A stretch of 64,000 nt of DNA. Source: Desulfatibacillum alkenivorans DSM 16219. Lineage in GTDB: Bacteria > Desulfobacterota > Desulfobacteria > Desulfobacterales > Desulfatibacillaceae. Position 1 is the stretch's first letter. Every line of letters begins with the position of its first letter. The translations under genes and the position numbers were made by a program. Of this stretch, positions 13,388 through 46,004 are shown in pieces. The DNA is taken from positions 186,001-250,000 of the forward strand of contig NZ_FQZU01000004.1 in the NCBI RefSeq assembly GCF_900142135.1. The letters run 5' to 3'. The notes beneath the pieces were generated by a model. That model did not search any database and had not been told where the DNA came from. It saw only the letters and a program-made list of their open reading frames with translations.

Positions 13388-14195
13388 CCATGATACGGGT
13401 CATCATTCGCATGATCCCATGGTAGACCAGGAAGCATTTGGTCTTGAAAAAATATAAGGCTTTTATGTCCCCGGACGTAATAAGCAGGTACTGATTTTTC
13501 TCTATCGCCCGGACTATCTGGCCGCCCACCTTCTCGGGCGTTAACGCGATCTTGCGGAATTTTTCCTTCAGCTTGTCTATTCCCGAAACCGGCGCTTTAA
13601 TCTGAACGCTTTCCAAAATGCCCGTGTTCACCGCTCCCGGACAAACCACCGTCACCTTGATGCCGTGCTTGTGCAGATCGTATTTTAACACTTCGCTGAT
13701 TCCCACGACTCCGTGTTTGGAAGCGCAATAGGCCAGGTGCCAGGGCAGGCCGAACAAACCGGCGGTGGATGACACATTGACAATGTGCCCGCCCCGGCCT
13801 CTTTTGACCATCTCCGGCATAAAACATTGGATGCCGTTAATCACCCCCCAAAGGTTGACGCCGATGATCCTGCGCCAGTCCTCCATGGTGTAATCCTGGG
13901 GCTGGGCGAACAAGGCCACGCCTGCATTGTTCACCAGAATGTCCATCACCCCGCATTCCTGGTGGATTTGCCGGGCGAAGGCGCTGACGGCCTCGTAATC
14001 GGAAATATCCAGGGCTTTGGCAAGACCCACTCTTCCGCCCCGGCTTTCAATTTCCTTGGCGGTTTGCTTTAAGCCCGTCTCATTGATGTCCGTGATGAAT
14101 AAAACGGCCCCTTTGGCGGCCAAAGCCATGGCCGCGGCCCGGCCTATGCCGCTGGCCGCCCCCGTCACCATTGCCTTCCTGCCTTTGATGATCAT
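13365..14195 (-). CDS. Short-chain dehydrogenase/reductase (SDR)
   Basis: 276 residues. The Rossmann motif is TGAASGIGRAAAMAL (residues 11-25), NNAG is present (NNAGVALFAQ), the catalytic Ser is in NVSSTAGLFG and the Tyr/Lys pair is YCASK. This is a classical SDR using NAD(P)H; the substrate is unknown. The ATG at 14195 has AGGAGG upstream. It is the last of five closely spaced minus-strand genes starting at 16815. The C-terminal 40 residues extend past the core and contain a hydrophobic stretch (ALYFFKTKCFLVYHGIMRM), which could associate with membrane. Confidence 0.92.
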   Translation of the reverse strand: MIIKGRKAMVTGAASGIGRAAAMALAAKGAVLFITDINETGLKQTAKEIESRGGRVGLAKALDISDYEAVSAFARQIHQECGVMDILVNNAGVALFAQPQDYTMEDWRRIIGVNLWGVINGIQCFMPEMVKRGRGGHIVNVSSTAGLFGLPWHLAYCASKHGVVGISEVLKYDLHKHGIKVTVVCPGAVNTGILESVQIKAPVSGIDKLKEKFRKIALTPEKVGGQIVRAIEKNQYLLITSGDIKALYFFKTKCFLVYHGIMRMMTRIMDKGLGIG

Positions 14196-36848: not shown

Positions 36849-38168
36849 ATGGCAGAAGAAGTTATCAAATTAACAAAAAAAGGGGGGAGCACCCTTAAAG
36901 ACAAGGTCATGGAGATTCTGCCTGAAGGCGGAAATCTGAATCTCTGCCTGACCTGCGGCGCCTGCTCCTCCGGATGCCCGGCCACCGGGCTCCACGACAT
37001 GGACCCCAGGAAATTCCTGCGCATGGCAGCCCTCGGGATGGACGAGGAGATCAAGAACTCTCCTTGGATCTGGTGCTGCTCCATGTGTCAACGGTGCATC
37101 TACGTGTGCCCCATGAAAATCGACATTCCTCAGTTGGTTTTCAACGCACGCAAAACCGTACCCAGGGAAGAACGCCCCAAGGGCATCCTGGCCTCCTGCG
37201 ACATGGCCCTGCGCAGCGATACATGCAGCGCCATGGGAACCAACGAGGAAGACTTCCAGTTTGTGGTGGAAGACGTCCTGGAAGAATACCGGGAAGCTCA
37301 ACCTGAATTCAAGGACATGCAGGCCCCCATCAACAAGGAAGGCGCCTACTTTTTCCTGAATCAGAACTCCCGCGAACCCGTGACCGAGCCCGATGAAATG
37401 GTGCCCCTGTGGAAGATCCTCCACCTGGTCGGCGCTGACTGGACTTATGGAACCAAGGGCTGGGCCGCTGAGAATTACTGCATGTTCCTGGCGGACGACG
37501 ACGCCTGGAAGCATATTGTCGAGGTGAAAGCCAAGGCAGTGGATGATCTGGGCTGTAAGGTCTGGCTCAATACCGAATGAGGCCACGAACTTTTCGCAGT
37601 CCGGGCCGGACTGAAAAAATACGGTGTCGAGCACAAGTTTGAAATCAAGAGCATCATCCAATACTACGCACAGTGGATTCGCGAAGGCAAACTCAAGGTG
37701 AACTCCGACTGGAACAAGGATCTGAAAATCAAGTTTACGGTTCAGGATCCCTGCCAGTTGGTGCGTAAATCCTTCGGCGATCCCGTGGCGGAAGACCTGC
37801 GCTTTGTGGTCAAGTCCGTTGTCGGCGAAGAAAACTTCGTGGACATGACCCCCAACCGCTCCAATAACTTCTGCTGCGGCGGCGGCGGCGGCTTCCTGCA
37901 AAGCGGTTACGCCGAAGAACGCCGGGAATACGGCCGGCTTAAGCTGAACCAGATCCTGGCCACCGGCGCCCAATACGCCATCACGCCTTGCCATAACTGC
38001 CACGCCCAGGTTCATGACTTGGCCGAGCATTATGAAGCGCCTTACCACACGGTCCATTTATGGACCCTGATTTGTCTTTCCCTCGGCGTTCTCGGTCCCC
38101 AGGAACGGGAATACCTGGGAGACGATCTGAAAGAAGTCAATGTGGCTGATTTCACGTCCATGTACTAG
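36849..38168 (+). CDS. Selenocysteine-containing HdrC/HdrB fusion protein (in-frame TGA = Sec244)
   Basis: I read this as one 439-residue protein, with TGA at 37578-37580 decoded as selenocysteine. The N-terminus has two 4Fe-4S motifs (CLTCGACSSGC at residues 33-43, CCSMCQRCIYVC at 76-87), typical of HdrC. The C-terminal part is an HdrB-type CCG domain: NTE-U-GHELF (244), DPCQ (302), CCGGGGG (342-343) and CHNC (381-384). The TGA falls exactly at a Cys of the CCG pattern, the frame continues for 195 codons without break, and the second part lacks a ribosome site at its only GTG (37698). A hairpin suitable as SECIS follows. Good RBS GGGAGGAAAAAACGT before ATG. The active thiol could be more reactive as Sec. 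Confidence 0.88.
37581..37620 (+). promoter_or_regulatory. Candidate bacterial SECIS element
   Basis: Perfect hairpin CAGTCCG (37597-37603), loop GGC (37604-37606), CGGACTG (37607-37613). A second pairing TTTT/AAAA outside it leaves a small internal loop. The apical loop starts 24 nt after the UGA and its first two bases are G, which fits the bacterial SECIS rules known to me. Confidence 0.75.
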
Positions 38169-38176
38169 GTAGATCC

Positions 38177-38209
38177 AAGGGAGCCCCGTCCATTGGGGCT
38201 CCCTTTTTT
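38177..38209 (+). terminator. Rho-independent terminator of the metV-hdr operon
   Basis: AAGGGAGCCCC (38177-38187) pairs with GGGGCTCCCTT (38195-38205) over a 7-base loop, followed by six T (38204-38209). Confidence 0.9.
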
Positions 38210-38573: not shown

Positions 38574-39218
38574 ATGGCTGAAGATTATCGGAAATGGCTG
38601 TGGGAAAAAACCGGGGAAAAATGCGTCAATAATCTTAAAAAGCACGCCTTTGACGCCCACCTTTGCAAGACGTCCCAGGAAGCCAAAGAATTAATCCTAA
38701 AAATGATTTCCCAATACGAAACGTTCGGCTTCGGCGGCTCCTCCACCACCCGGGACATGGGCCTGATCGAAGCCCTGAAAGAACAGGGGAAAACCATCCT
38801 AGACCATAACGATCCGTCGCTTCCCTTTGAAGAAAGCCTGGAATTCCGCCGCCAGCAAAGCCTGTGCGATTGCTTTTTATGCTCGGCCAACGGCATTTCC
38901 GTGACCGGTGAAATCGTCAACGTGGACGGCTGCGGCAACCGGACCAACGCCATGTCCTTCGGCCCCAAAAAGGTCGTAATCGTGGCCGGCGCCAATAAAA
39001 TCTGCAAGGACCTCCATGCAGCCCTGGACAGGGTCCACACCGTGGCCGCGCCCATGCGCGCCAAAAGCCTGAACATGGAAACTCCCTGCGCAGAAACCGG
39101 AATTTGCGTGGACTGCAACTCTCCGTCCCGCGTCTGCCGGATCACCACCATCCTGCACCGCAAACCCATGCTTACGGACATCAGCGTGGTCATTGTGGCG
39201 GAGGAGTTGGGATATTAA
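38574..39218 (+). CDS. LUD-domain protein (LutC/YkgG-like)
   Basis: 214 residues. The core shows the LUD pattern (FGFGGSSTTRDMGLIEALKE; SANGISVTGEIVNVDGCGNR; FGPKKVVIVAGANKI). A Cys-containing tail (ETGICVDCNSPSRVCRI) could bind a metal. LUD proteins occur in lactate oxidation (LutABC) and related pathways; LutA and LutB are not next to it here. GGGAGGC ribosome site precedes the ATG. A terminator follows directly. Confidence 0.85.
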   Translation: MAEDYRKWLWEKTGEKCVNNLKKHAFDAHLCKTSQEAKELILKMISQYETFGFGGSSTTRDMGLIEALKEQGKTILDHNDPSLPFEESLEFRRQQSLCDCFLCSANGISVTGEIVNVDGCGNRTNAMSFGPKKVVIVAGANKICKDLHAALDRVHTVAAPMRAKSLNMETPCAETGICVDCNSPSRVCRITTILHRKPMLTDISVVIVAEELGY

Positions 39219-39219
39219 T

Positions 39220-39247
39220 CAGGTTACTTAAACCTGGCTTTTTTTTT
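39220..39247 (+). terminator. Terminator after the LUD-domain gene
   Basis: CAGGTT (39220-39225) pairs with AACCTG (39231-39236), followed by CTTTTTTTTT. It overlaps the 3' end of the convergent gene. Confidence 0.7.
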
Positions 39248-40523
39248 CAGCCAGCATTTCCAAAAAAGCGTCTATGCGGACTTGAAACTGGGCGGTTGAA
39301 AAATTGCGGGCGTCCATGTGGTCGGCGTCGAATATCACGGAGGGGATGCCCAACTCTTCTTCCAAGGCCTTCTTGATATCCATTTGCCCCAGACTGATGG
39401 GAACGCAGGATTTGTTGCGGTGAAAAACAACGCCGTCAATGGCGTATTCCCGGCAGGCCTTCAAAACCATCTCTTTCCGCTTTTCAATGGAAACGCACGA
39501 AACCAGGGGGTAAGACATCAGGCTTTTCATGGCCAGCGCCTTGATCGGGTCCGCCGGATCAAGCCGGATGGACCATGCGGCCGAATAAGTTTCCGCCACC
39601 ACCACGGCGTTGGCTTTTTCAAAATAATTGAACAGGCCCATGTTGTACCAGAGGGGGATGTTGTCCCAGAAAAGCCGGAGCTTCTCCTCTTCAATGACGC
39701 CTGTTCCCGACTCGGCGCGCTCTTTGATTTCGTCTCTGGCTTTGATTAGAAAATCAATGGCCTGCCGGGTTCCCTGGCGGGTGACCATCACGAACATGAT
39801 GCCGATTTCAGCGGCGGAAAAAGGCGCGGGGATGGTTCGCCGAAAACTCATGATTTCGTCCCACAGGGCGCAAGCCTGATCGGACAGGACTACCACTTCC
39901 CGTAAGCGGTCCTGGTCCAGCTTCCGGCCCGTGGCTTTCTCCAGAAAATCAATCAGCCGCTGCATTTCCTGAATTGCATAGTCAACGTGGTGAGGGGCGA
40001 TTTCCTCCAAGGCGACCTGAGGCAGGTCCGCCTTAAACACCTTGGCTTCGGGGAATCGCCGCTCCAGGGCGTGAAAGATCTTCATGACCGGCACGCACCC
40101 CCCGCCGGGGGAAATGAGCAGGTCCGGGGCGGGCAGACCTCCAAGCGGAATGGCAGGATCGGTCATGGGGCCGTTCACGTATCCGACAATATTCCTCAAG
40201 TAGCCGCAAAGGTCTCTGGAGTAGCCCATGCCTTCGCTGACTTCAAAATTTTTGGGAGTCAGGCCAAAGGCGGCGCAAACCGGAGACCAGTTTTCGGGAA
40301 AGACCGGTTGAAGATCCATGGCGTAAAACAGTTCTATGGCGCCGTTCATAGGCGGCATCCACCCGACGGGCTTGCCCTGCTCTTTAGCGGCTGCGCATTC
40401 CAGATAATATTCGCCCACCGCCTTGTTCAGCTCTTTTGCCGCCGCCAGCCTTTTGGTCGATTTTTTCGATTTTTCCATGCTTCGTTCCATACGTTGCGGT
40501 TTTGCAAATCTTTCCAAAGCCAC
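39228..40523 (-). CDS. 2-hydroxyacyl-CoA dehydratase family protein (BcrC/HgdA type)
   Basis: 431 residues if the GTG at 40523 is used; ATGs at 40490 or 40478 are possible. It has the HgdB/HgdA family fold with C-terminal HRNKSCVPISLGQMDIKKAL and the usual FDADHMDARNFS near the end. The family uses a 4Fe-4S cluster and an ATP-driven activator to remove water from 2-hydroxyacyl-CoA (or to reduce benzoyl-CoA). No activator gene is visible in the window. It begins 32 bases after its partner gene. Confidence 0.85.
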   Translation of the reverse strand: MALERFAKPQRMERSMEKSKKSTKRLAAAKELNKAVGEYYLECAAAKEQGKPVGWMPPMNGAIELFYAMDLQPVFPENWSPVCAAFGLTPKNFEVSEGMGYSRDLCGYLRNIVGYVNGPMTDPAIPLGGLPAPDLLISPGGGCVPVMKIFHALERRFPEAKVFKADLPQVALEEIAPHHVDYAIQEMQRLIDFLEKATGRKLDQDRLREVVVLSDQACALWDEIMSFRRTIPAPFSAAEIGIMFVMVTRQGTRQAIDFLIKARDEIKERAESGTGVIEEEKLRLFWDNIPLWYNMGLFNYFEKANAVVVAETYSAAWSIRLDPADPIKALAMKSLMSYPLVSCVSIEKRKEMVLKACREYAIDGVVFHRNKSCVPISLGQMDIKKALEEELGIPSVIFDADHMDARNFSTAQFQVRIDAFLEMLAEKKSQV

Positions 40524-43559: not shown

Positions 43560-43942
43560 AAAATTCCGACCCCATATGCCCCGGCTGCGGCGCTTCCATG
43601 CCCTTGTGCACCAAAGAGGCGACCATCCAGTTTCGGGGCAGGGAAATCACGGTGGAAGTCGCCTGCCATGTGTGCCCGGATTGCGGGCTGGAAGCCGGAA
43701 CCCCCGAGCAGGCCTGCACCATCCAGGCGGCCATTGCCGAAGCCTACCGGTTTCAGGAAGGCATGATGACGGGCCGGGAAATTACGGAGACCCGCTGGTC
43801 CAAAGGCCTGAGCCAGGAGGAGTTGGCGGAGAAAACCGGATTCCCCCTGCGCGAGATCCAATGCTGGGAAGCGGGCGCCATTCAGTCCAAAGAGCAGGAC
43901 GATCTCCTGCGGCAAATCTTAACCGATGAATCTCCCGCCTAA
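43556..43942 (+). CDS. MqsA/YgiT-type antitoxin-like protein (zinc finger + HTH)
   Basis: 128 residues from TTG 43556 (AAAGG upstream; a GTG at 43517 is less likely). The N-terminal zinc finger is CPGCG...CHVCPDCG; the C-terminal HTH reads GLSQEELAEKTGFPLREIQ. This layout is that of MqsA-type antitoxins, which bind the toxin with the zinc finger and the promoter with the HTH. With the upstream 120-residue protein it makes a likely type II toxin-antitoxin pair. Confidence 0.78.
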   Translation: MKNSDPICPGCGASMPLCTKEATIQFRGREITVEVACHVCPDCGLEAGTPEQACTIQAAIAEAYRFQEGMMTGREITETRWSKGLSQEELAEKTGFPLREIQCWEAGAIQSKEQDDLLRQILTDESPA

Positions 43943-45756
43943 TCCGCGGGCATGGCCGGCGCTCCGGTTTCCGGGTTCCAACCCTGTTCAGCATAATATT
44001 CCCGAATCATCACCCCCACTTCCCCGGGCGTAATAGGCTTTCCGGTCAGGTAGTTGCAAAAAGGCGGCTCTTCAAACCATTTGGCCGGCGGCTCTTCATC
44101 CTTCCTCCCAAAGCCTTCTCGCATGTTGATGATTTTCAGCAAGGCCCAGGCGGCGTCGGCCCTGTCGCCGAGGTCGCTTCCCTGAGCGGGAATGCCCGTA
44201 ACCGCCTGGTACAAGTCCGAACACAAATCATAGTTGTAAAAACGGTTGATCTGAGCCCGGGCGCATACGCCCAGCGAGCCCAGGATGGTAAACCACCGGT
44301 GCGAGTATTTGAGCAAACGGCCTATGTTCAGGTCCGTGGGGGCGCCCTCTCTCCATCCGGGCAAAATGCGGTCCAGGGCGTCGTCCGGGACGCCCATGCG
44401 CTTGAGGTGCTTGGGAAAAACCTCCAGGGGGCGTTGGGCGAAATAGGTGGGCGAGCCCCCCGACCCCACATGAGGCCCCCGCGGGTCCAGGATCTGCCCC
44501 AACTCCATGGTGCCGAAAAGGTTCCAGGGCAGGGGCGCCTTGGGTCCGGCGTAAGGCATCATGCCTTTGACCTTGTACGGCAAGTAAGGGGCCGCCTCCG
44601 GTCCGCAGCGCTCCAGGATTGCGTCCAGGCCTCGGGCTATCAAATCCCCCAAGCCTTGGCGATAAGCCGTCTTTTCCGCCCAGATTTTCATGGACTCAAA
44701 CTTGGTCAGGTCAATGGGCGGGGTCGCCTCATCCGAGGATATGATTCCCGCGACGGCCAAATCTCCGGCAAAGCCGACGGCGGCGAAAAACTCGAACATG
44801 TCCATGGCAAAGCCGTCCAGCATGGTCATGAGGGTGACGGCTTCTTTGTGATCCTTCATGCCGAAGATGGTGGGAACGTATAGGTTCATGGCCGAACTGC
44901 TGGTTGCAATCAGGCCGGAGACGCGGATAATGTCTTTATCGCCGATGGGGCAGGATACGCATGCCATGCGGCGGACTTTCGCCTCGGAGTATTCCTCCTT
45001 GGAAATGATAGGCAGGGATTTCATCAGCCCCAGATCCTGCCATTCCTTGAGATAGGGATAGTTTCGTATATTTTCAAAAAGGTCTTTGGTGAGTTTTTTA
45101 TAGGCCTTTCTGTCCGCTACGGTAATGCCGTTCATCCCTCGGGCTATGACCGCCTTCAGGTTTTTGGCGCCCATGACCGCGCCGAAGCCTCCCCGTCCCA
45201 TGGTGGACAGGCGATCCACAAAAGCCATGGCGTAAGCCGCCTGGTTCTCCCCGGCCTGTCCGATCCCAAGCACTCCGGCGGGCCGGCCGTGCTTTTCCCA
45301 CAGGGCGCGGCAGGCGTCTTCCACCCCCATTCCCCATAAAGACCCGGCGTCGCGAATGACCGGCGCGTCCCCTGTAATGTCAAGATACACGGGCCGGTCC
45401 GATTTGCCGGTGATCACCAGAAAGTCAAAGCCTGCGTATTTCATGAACGCGCCGAAGTTAACGCCCCCGGCCCCGCACCAGCCCACCGAACGGCTTTGGG
45501 GAAGCCTTGTCATGCCGTACACCCGGGAGGAGGCGGGAACACTGGTTCCCACCAGAGGTCCGGCGCCAATGATGACGGGGTTTTCCGGCGCGAGCGGCTC
45601 GGTGCCTGGAGTGATATTCTCGTAAGCCAGCCGAATGCAGCCGCCCAGTCCGCCTATATACTGCTCGCACAAATCCCGGGATAAAGGCCGGGATTCCAGT
45701 TCGCCGGCGCTTAAATCCACGTAAAGCACATTGCCTGCAAAACCGTTCCAATCCAT
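43939..45756 (-). CDS. Aldehyde:ferredoxin oxidoreductase (tungsten AOR family)
   Basis: 605 residues from ATG 45756 (AGGAGGGG upstream; frame open further). N-terminal GNVLYVDLSAGELESRPLSRD and the pterin region (GGVNFGAFMKYAGFDFLVIT, MGRGGFGAVMGAKNLKAVIA) are as in AOR. The Fe-S motif near residue 290 reads ACVSCPIGDKD: the first two Cys are present, but the usual third Cys (CxxCxxxC) is Asp. The last Cys is in GSLGVCARAQ. It would oxidise aldehydes to acids with ferredoxin. Its own ferredoxin is encoded 14 bases upstream on the same strand. Confidence 0.9.
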   Translation of the reverse strand: MDWNGFAGNVLYVDLSAGELESRPLSRDLCEQYIGGLGGCIRLAYENITPGTEPLAPENPVIIGAGPLVGTSVPASSRVYGMTRLPQSRSVGWCGAGGVNFGAFMKYAGFDFLVITGKSDRPVYLDITGDAPVIRDAGSLWGMGVEDACRALWEKHGRPAGVLGIGQAGENQAAYAMAFVDRLSTMGRGGFGAVMGAKNLKAVIARGMNGITVADRKAYKKLTKDLFENIRNYPYLKEWQDLGLMKSLPIISKEEYSEAKVRRMACVSCPIGDKDIIRVSGLIATSSSAMNLYVPTIFGMKDHKEAVTLMTMLDGFAMDMFEFFAAVGFAGDLAVAGIISSDEATPPIDLTKFESMKIWAEKTAYRQGLGDLIARGLDAILERCGPEAAPYLPYKVKGMMPYAGPKAPLPWNLFGTMELGQILDPRGPHVGSGGSPTYFAQRPLEVFPKHLKRMGVPDDALDRILPGWREGAPTDLNIGRLLKYSHRWFTILGSLGVCARAQINRFYNYDLCSDLYQAVTGIPAQGSDLGDRADAAWALLKIINMREGFGRKDEEPPAKWFEEPPFCNYLTGKPITPGEVGVMIREYYAEQGWNPETGAPAMPAD

Positions 45757-45770
45757 GACGCCCCTCCTGA

Positions 45771-46004
45771 TCAAGACTCTCTGGGCGTCTTGGACAACGC
45801 CCCGTAAAAGCACTGGTCCACGCACACGCCGCATTCCGTGCATTCCTCCGTAAAGGAAATCTCAGCCTCTTCGCCTTTGACAATCACCCGGATTCGCGCC
45901 AGCAACGGATTGAAAGCCCGGTGGTATAACTCGGAACAGGCCAGGCCGCATTTCATGCACCCGGTGCAGGAAGCAGCATCAATGGAAATGAGGAATTTGC
46001 CCAT
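45771..46004 (-). CDS. 2x[4Fe-4S] ferredoxin-like protein
   Basis: 77 residues. Two Cys clusters: CTGCMKCGLAC (residues 13-23) and CTECGVCVDQC (55-65), the pattern of an HybA/DMSO-reductase-type electron-transfer subunit. It starts ahead of the AOR gene, so it is its likely electron acceptor. Confidence 0.9.
   Translation of the reverse strand: MGKFLISIDAASCTGCMKCGLACSELYHRAFNPLLARIRVIVKGEEAEISFTEECTECGVCVDQCFYGALSKTPRES

Follow-up and report, generated by a model that had tools for sequence, protein, structure and literature searches.

Comparative evidence for selenocysteine in an HdrCB-type iron-sulfur protein encoded beside metV and metF in Desulfatibacillum alkenivorans

In Desulfatibacillum alkenivorans DSM 16219, a gene cluster with metV- and metF-like genes ends in a reading frame for an HdrC/HdrB-type protein (hdrCB) that contains a TGA codon, and the locus raises the question whether this codon closes a gene or is read as selenocysteine (Sec) within a longer one, and what such a residue would do at that place. 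Positions are those of the window, i.e. the whole stretch of 64,000 nucleotides that was analysed. The frame opens with the ATG at 36849, downstream of a GGGAGG read from the sequence, and runs to the TAG at 38166–38168; its sole in-frame TGA is codon 244, after which 195 codons remain open, and the surrounding motif is LNTE-U-GHE, with E-U-G-H as residues 243–246. A re-reading of the sequence bore out this frame as an earlier sequence-only reading had described it, from 36849 through the TGA to the stop ending at 38168. The features are collected in Table 1. The terminator-shaped stem lies 3′ of the TAG and not of the TGA; the promoter and terminator scan, in which it is unlisted, returned 4 promoter-like sites against 2.8 expected and 11 terminator-like sites against 10.8 expected. 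An Rfam search of the window gave one tRNA and nothing else. A generic scan of the window returned five more TGAs with at least 60 open codons on each side and a stem of at least 6; judged by eye, they resemble shadow frames of ORFs of annotated size, but with them in the same window the arrangement in hdrCB is not striking by itself.

Table 1. Features of the metV-metF-hdr region and of the hdrCB gene (window positions)
Feature	Positions	Strand	Basis or detail
metV-like gene, 227 aa	32190–32873	+	PF12225 'Methylene-tetrahydrofolate reductase C terminal', E 2.5e-35
metF, methylenetetrahydrofolate reductase, 320 aa	32913–33875	+	PF02219, E 6.4e-40
HdrA-like flavoprotein 1 (HdrA1), 405 aa	33964–35181	+	spans only HdrA residues about 144–561
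HdrA-like protein 2 (HdrA2), 532 aa	35178–36776	+	two 4Fe-4S motifs, C-terminal MvhD/FlpD domain
hdrCB fusion selenoprotein gene, 439 aa with U244	36849–38168	+	frame, domains, codons of relatives, alignment
HdrC-type part, two 4Fe-4S motifs	36945–37109	+	C33 C36 C39 C43 and C77 C80 C83 C87, invariant in 82/82 rows
TGA as selenocysteine, residue 244, motif E-U-G-H	37578–37580	+	codons of relatives, alignment
SECIS stem-loop, 7 bp, loop GGC	37597–37613	+	shuffles and covariation; G37604 is the first loop base
Second, intact CCG domain	37752–38000	+	C302, C342 C343, C381 C384; five cysteines of the kind that binds a noncubane cluster
Terminator-shaped stem of 9 bp with a 7-base loop, then six T	38179–38203	+	read from the sequence, unlisted by the scan

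The codon at residue 244 was followed through relatives collected in two ways. When 84,980 species genomes were scanned with six search patterns, none of which covers residue 244, 426 relatives were obtained; in the best 80 of these 426, hence those nearest the query, the codon is TGA in 80 of 80. A search of the phylum (395 genomes, with matches in 110) provided a further 60 stretches, namely 59 relatives and the surroundings of the genome's own paralogue, which were picked by hand with and without TGA rows, so that the ratio of Sec to Cys among them is no estimate of frequency. From 171 of the 184 loci, among which duplicates were counted (e.g. L104/L163, L124/L125 and L002/L184), 173 matches were obtained, with TGA in 150, TGC in 21 and TGT in 2, and this restriction to Cys or Sec holds down to 32–33% identity. 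The homologue alignment that the sequence-only reading had proposed as a check therefore turned out in its favour in every one of the matches, including the genome's own hdrCB paralogue (L002), which has Cys at this position. The 13 loci dropped for want of a long match (L003–L008 and L089–L095) include L007, which is the same gene as L188, a protein with Ser at position 244. In the printed rows, all in-frame TGAs fall exactly at residue 244, and the other stops printed, TAA or TAG, lie close to the ends. Two phylum matches, L172 (G333:C44) and L152 (G187:C21), were counted with 3 and 2 TGAs, respectively, the aligned part of each showing one, at residue 244; the extra ones may be further Sec codons or ragged ends.

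In a tree of 82 proteins selected by us from the collected loci (62 Sec, 20 Cys; residue 244 excluded), Cys copies are interspersed with Sec copies and the majority of clades are mainly Sec; at least 10 changes between the Sec and Cys labels are needed, as against 18 with shuffled labels, and 9 of them are forced by well-supported branches. Codon change between the window gene and a relative (L009) amounts to 69 synonymous and 15 non-synonymous changes before the TGA (n = 243 codons) and to 47 and 24 after it (n = 195), a comparison indicating that past the TGA, as upstream of it, change is mostly synonymous.

The hairpin that the sequence-only reading had proposed as a SECIS element begins with the 17th base downstream of the TGA and forms seven pairs, from C37597 to G37613. 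In the window by itself it is weak evidence, as an equally long stem arises in 9.5% of 200 synonymous shuffles (z −1.9), and the comparative data are what settles the Sec reading. When an outer pair is added to the seven, making eight, 85.1% of cells are paired across 121 distinct TGA regions, compared with a mean of 76.1% and a maximum of 77.9% in 500 column shuffles, with 14–49% for versions slid by 1–3 columns and with 50.6% in 21 Cys homologues. Two-sided, compensatory changes occur in 82 cells of the same regions, G opens the loop in all 121, and the mean z against synonymous shuffles is −1.98 for the 121 TGA regions vs. +0.59 for 19 TGC regions. Judged by this pairing, covariation and invariant loop G in the TGA regions, and by the lower pairing in the Cys homologues, the hairpin is a SECIS. 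Of the Cys genes, L173 still has a strong stem (z −2.3) in which the loop G is absent and which looks like a fossil SECIS, and L134 has a weak SECIS-like remnant after its Cys codon (z −0.2); both are possible fossils of a change from Sec to Cys.

The genome also encodes the decoding machinery, whose absence would have counted against the sequence-only reading, all four components sought scoring above cut-off: selA (604.9 bits, cut-off 268), selB (384.7 bits, cut-off 242), selD (363.6 bits, cut-off 125) and tRNA-Sec (76.1 bits, cut-off 47; anticodon TCA by ARAGORN). Sub-cut-off matches to selB, selD and tRNA-Sec were discounted, since at the loose threshold the controls were positive in all 14 genomes. 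The selD gene (L092, C17:74351–75274) has one in-frame TGA of its own, and the selenophosphate synthetase of this genome is probably itself a selenoprotein.

Given these data, the alternative in which the TGA is a true stop, a sequencing error or the mark of a pseudogene, leaving two genes or a broken one, has scarcely any probability and was rejected on comparative grounds: translation table 11 ends the ORF there, GTG 37698 could start a second ORF and a hairpin of this kind is not rare, but the TGA recurs at the same residue throughout the best 80 of 426 relatives and persists down to 33% identity, change past it is mainly synonymous, the sel genes are present and the hairpin covaries. An in-frame TGA, a downstream SECIS with G at the start of its loop, homologues with Cys or Sec and the sel genes occur together here, as in bacterial selenoproteins, and we consider it confirmed by sequence comparison that hdrCB is one gene with its TGA read as selenocysteine, and not a split pair. 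With SelB, Sec-tRNA and a SECIS just behind the codon, the TGA would be read through to give a 439-residue HdrC/HdrB-type iron-sulfur protein.

In line with the earlier call of an HdrC/HdrB-type fusion, 4Fe-4S and CCG domains lie together in this protein, Pfam recognizing two 4Fe-4S motifs and one CCG domain (PF02754 (CCG), E 7.9e-11; PF13534 and PF13183, E 2e-08; all above cut-off). In the HdrB part of 82 aligned rows only C/U244, C302, C342, C343, C381 and C384 are invariant; E243, G245 and H246 are conserved in at least 90% of these relatives. The sequence-only reading had set the TGA at the Cys of a CCG-type motif, and this stands in part: the motif NTE-U-GHE is as described, but the intact CCG motif (C302/C342/C343/C381/C384) lies downstream of Sec244. 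A Sec within an intact CCG motif is ruled out, Sec244 being the lone survivor of a degenerate first CCG domain, and the product does not have the two complete CCG cysteine motifs of an HdrB with two noncubane clusters.

A predicted model of the product (pLDDT 90.9, pTM 0.90, no clusters modelled) matches EtfD (PDB 9ojn; Z 25.8, rmsd 2.7 over 369 residues) and the HdrB chains 8rvy_B (Z 21.1) and 5odc_B (Z 20.2), so the predicted fold is that of two CCG domains, as in EtfD and HdrB (5odc_B). In a profile alignment to EtfD, residue 244 corresponds to Cys581, H246 to His583 and E247 to Cys584, and C302/C342/C343/C381/C384 correspond to Cys637/672/673/709/712. According to the EtfD paper, Cys503, 538, 581 and 584 ligate a linear [3Fe-4S] cluster, and Cys637, 672, 673, 709 and 712 together with His583 ligate a noncubane [4Fe-4S] cluster. 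The ligands of the first cluster are by this alignment lost in the hdrCB product, residue 244 excepted, and those of the second are all kept; whereas EtfD and HdrB hold two clusters in their CCG domains, the hdrCB product has invariant ligands for only one. From the same alignment, Sec244 would lie near the remaining noncubane-type cluster site, two residues ahead of its presumed His ligand. Among CCG proteins of the same genome, DsrK (728 bits, cut-off 400) has Cys at position 244 in the motif ECGH, and the more remote L188 has Ser there and keeps the His; L008 and L194 were left out of this comparison, as was L193, which aligns poorly around residue 244. A thiol or selenol at this site is thus a trait of the DsrK-like group rather than of the fold itself.

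What Sec244 does beside such a site can be read in two ways. If it is redox-active, it would act as a selenol next to the single noncubane-type cluster and make contact with a partner, probably a disulfide or another thiol carrier; DsrC as that partner is a guess by analogy, from likeness to DsrK only. Alternatively, Sec244 could be a structural ligand, with selenium in place of sulfur binding a cluster and tuning its potential while electrons merely pass through. Its alignment with the EtfD ligand Cys581 speaks for this reading, but in the 82 rows none of EtfD's other ligands of that cluster (Cys503, Cys538, Cys584) is matched by an invariant Cys, so that the linear cluster should not form, and we regard a purely structural part as rather unlikely; in a variant of it, Sec244 may be an extra ligand of the other, noncubane cluster.

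As to known families, a 2026 review lists a predicted selenoprotein family 'Fe-S oxidoreductase-like protein, PTHR43551, UGH' (PMC13188914), and with its Sec in a UGH motif and its 4Fe-4S and CCG domains the hdrCB product, by sequence, is a member. It shares with the GlpC/COG0247/PTHR43551 selenoproteins the U-G-H motif, the nature of a CCG-domain Fe-S oxidoreductase, the bacterial SECIS and deltaproteobacterial operons with hdrA. According to three papers, GlpC selenoproteins sit beside hdrA and frh genes in deltaproteobacteria (PMC13188914, PMC9312934, PMC1794560); the operons given there run glpC-hdrA-frhD-frhG-frhA (hydrogenase), whereas the neighbours of the window gene are metV and metF. 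HdrD4 of Desulfobacterium autotrophicum HRM2, reported as an HdrCB-type selenoprotein (PMC2702500), likewise joins HdrC and HdrB domains in one soluble protein. Over its full length the hdrCB product resembles the NCBIfam models of DsrK (NF045796, E 4.4e-32), TmcB (NF045724, 8e-48) and HmcF (NF045711, 3.8e-51), its scores of 111, 163 and 174 bits lying far below the respective cut-offs of 400, 735 and 750; the DsrK of this genome has Cys in the same motif, and the hdrCB product differs from all three in having Sec in place of Cys and no adjoining genes for membrane partners.

The sequence-only reading had supposed that a Sec at this position of a MetF-linked Hdr subunit might be new. The position itself is already listed in the review (PMC13188914), but in the open-licence literature we found no text that places an HdrCB-type selenoprotein in a metF operon; a paper on the partners of methane-oxidising archaea mentions metF-HdrABC clusters in sulfate reducers, its main text being silent on selenocysteine. 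The UGH family and an HdrCB-type selenoprotein are thus known, and the MetF-linked subgroup is the part for which that literature yielded no description.

In the window, hdrCB is the last of five genes on the plus strand, separated by 39, 88, −4 and 72 bases from metV to hdrCB; the order, shared strand and short gaps fit the claim that the gene lies inside a metF operon. The length of MetF is counted from the first TTG, and the real start may be more internal. Directly 3′ of the cluster lies a gene for a LUD-domain protein (38574–39218), and the window further contains, on the minus strand, genes for a 2-hydroxyglutaryl-CoA dehydratase D-component (39228–40523) and an aldehyde ferredoxin oxidoreductase (43939–45843). 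Among relatives, metF or metV is found near hdrCB in 40 of the 80 nearest loci (best 80 of 426), in three arrangements, which together with metV and metF upstream in the window substantiates the proposed linkage. Of the nearest loci, 37 are flanked by 5 kb or more upstream and 4 kb or more downstream; 21 of them have metF or metV and 16 have neither, and no Hdr or Met domain was recognized at E 1e-10 in ten ORFs from five of these 16. A Sec form exclusive to MetF operons is thereby ruled out; MetF is a frequent, non-obligate neighbour. The order seen in the window, with an HdrA2 of at least 40% identity directly upstream, occurs in 17 loci, all with TGA, a count that includes the window gene itself (L001) and L096, an apparent duplicate of L009. 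The genome's own Cys paralogue adjoins MvhD-like and HdrA-like frames, with no MetF within 7 kb; near it, a frame resembling a BadF/HgdC-type dehydratase activator was noted by eye (L184, C3, reverse strand, frame at 13389). An aldehyde ferredoxin oxidoreductase/iron-containing alcohol dehydrogenase fusion is encoded near a solitary hdrCB selenoprotein gene (L061:8501–11350).

The gene content invites comparison with the Hdr-type methylenetetrahydrofolate reductase of Moorella and Sporomusa, in which MetV, MetF, HdrA, HdrB, HdrC and MvhD parts are likewise clustered, the MetVF of Sporomusa ovata binding HdrA, HdrB and MvhD in pull-downs (PMC9430772). By analogy, the complex encoded in the window could be an electron-bifurcating enzyme of the Moorella type with the CCG site on its high-potential branch. 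The same kinds of subunit are encoded, the hdr genes and the MvhD domain being accompanied by metF and metV, and of E356 and K409, the HdrA residues used in the same study as the mark of a bifurcating flavin (PMC9430772), HdrA1 keeps the equivalent of E356 in the alignment to 5odc_A. Against this, K409 is replaced by Arg in HdrA1 and by Leu in HdrA2, HdrA1 is without the N-terminal HdrA part and has lost most cysteines in its inserted ferredoxin part (printed alignment), and HdrB, joined to HdrC in one chain, has a single full CCG motif left. Compared with the Moorella/Sporomusa enzyme as there described (PMC9430772), the window system thus has HdrC and HdrB fused, a single full CCG motif, Sec, an MvhD fused to a second HdrA-like protein and an incomplete bifurcation signature. 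From these sequence features bifurcation of this type appears unlikely for the complex, and its operation here is doubtful.

Since the signature in HdrA1 and HdrA2 is incomplete, we prefer a plain electron-transfer chain between methyl-/methylene-tetrahydrofolate (THF) and the CCG site. Electrons would be exchanged with these folates at the MetF flavin and would travel by way of MetV, the MvhD domain, the HdrA-like flavins and the pair of 4Fe-4S clusters in HdrC to the CCG site, or in the opposite sense, the direction being one that we infer, and HdrCB is likely the electron outlet or inlet of the MetVF-Hdr assembly. Cumulatively, we consider it quite probable that the read-through HdrCB with Sec244 serves as the subunit through which electrons leave or enter an assembly of MetV, MetF, HdrA and HdrA/MvhD, with Sec244 as a redox-active selenol. 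Counting against this role, the Sec form also occurs away from MetF, and the Ser of L188 means that not every protein of this fold carries a thiol there. In HdrB a disulfide is acted on jointly by a pair of noncubane clusters; tentatively, and as one joint proposal, Sec244 may have taken over the job of the lost cluster, a selenolate and one noncubane [4Fe-4S] cluster then replacing the HdrB pair in a new active site that would form a selenenyl-sulfide with its substrate and work in one-electron steps. Such chemistry would be somewhat like that of ferredoxin:thioredoxin reductase.

To our knowledge, sulfate reducers that oxidise their substrates completely still lack an established electron partner for methylene-THF reductase. 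If the site of selenolate and single cluster is real, oxidation of methyl-THF would be tied directly to a thiol/disulfide pool, e.g. DsrC, in sulfate reducers. The alternation of Sec and Cys at the site means that natural Sec/Cys pairs exist, one of them inside the D. alkenivorans genome. As this protein scores below the cut-off of every NCBIfam model, genes of the hdrCB group are likely often split or shortened in annotation that takes the TGA as a stop. A conserved selenol that ends a MetF-linked Hdr chain offers a named residue for testing.
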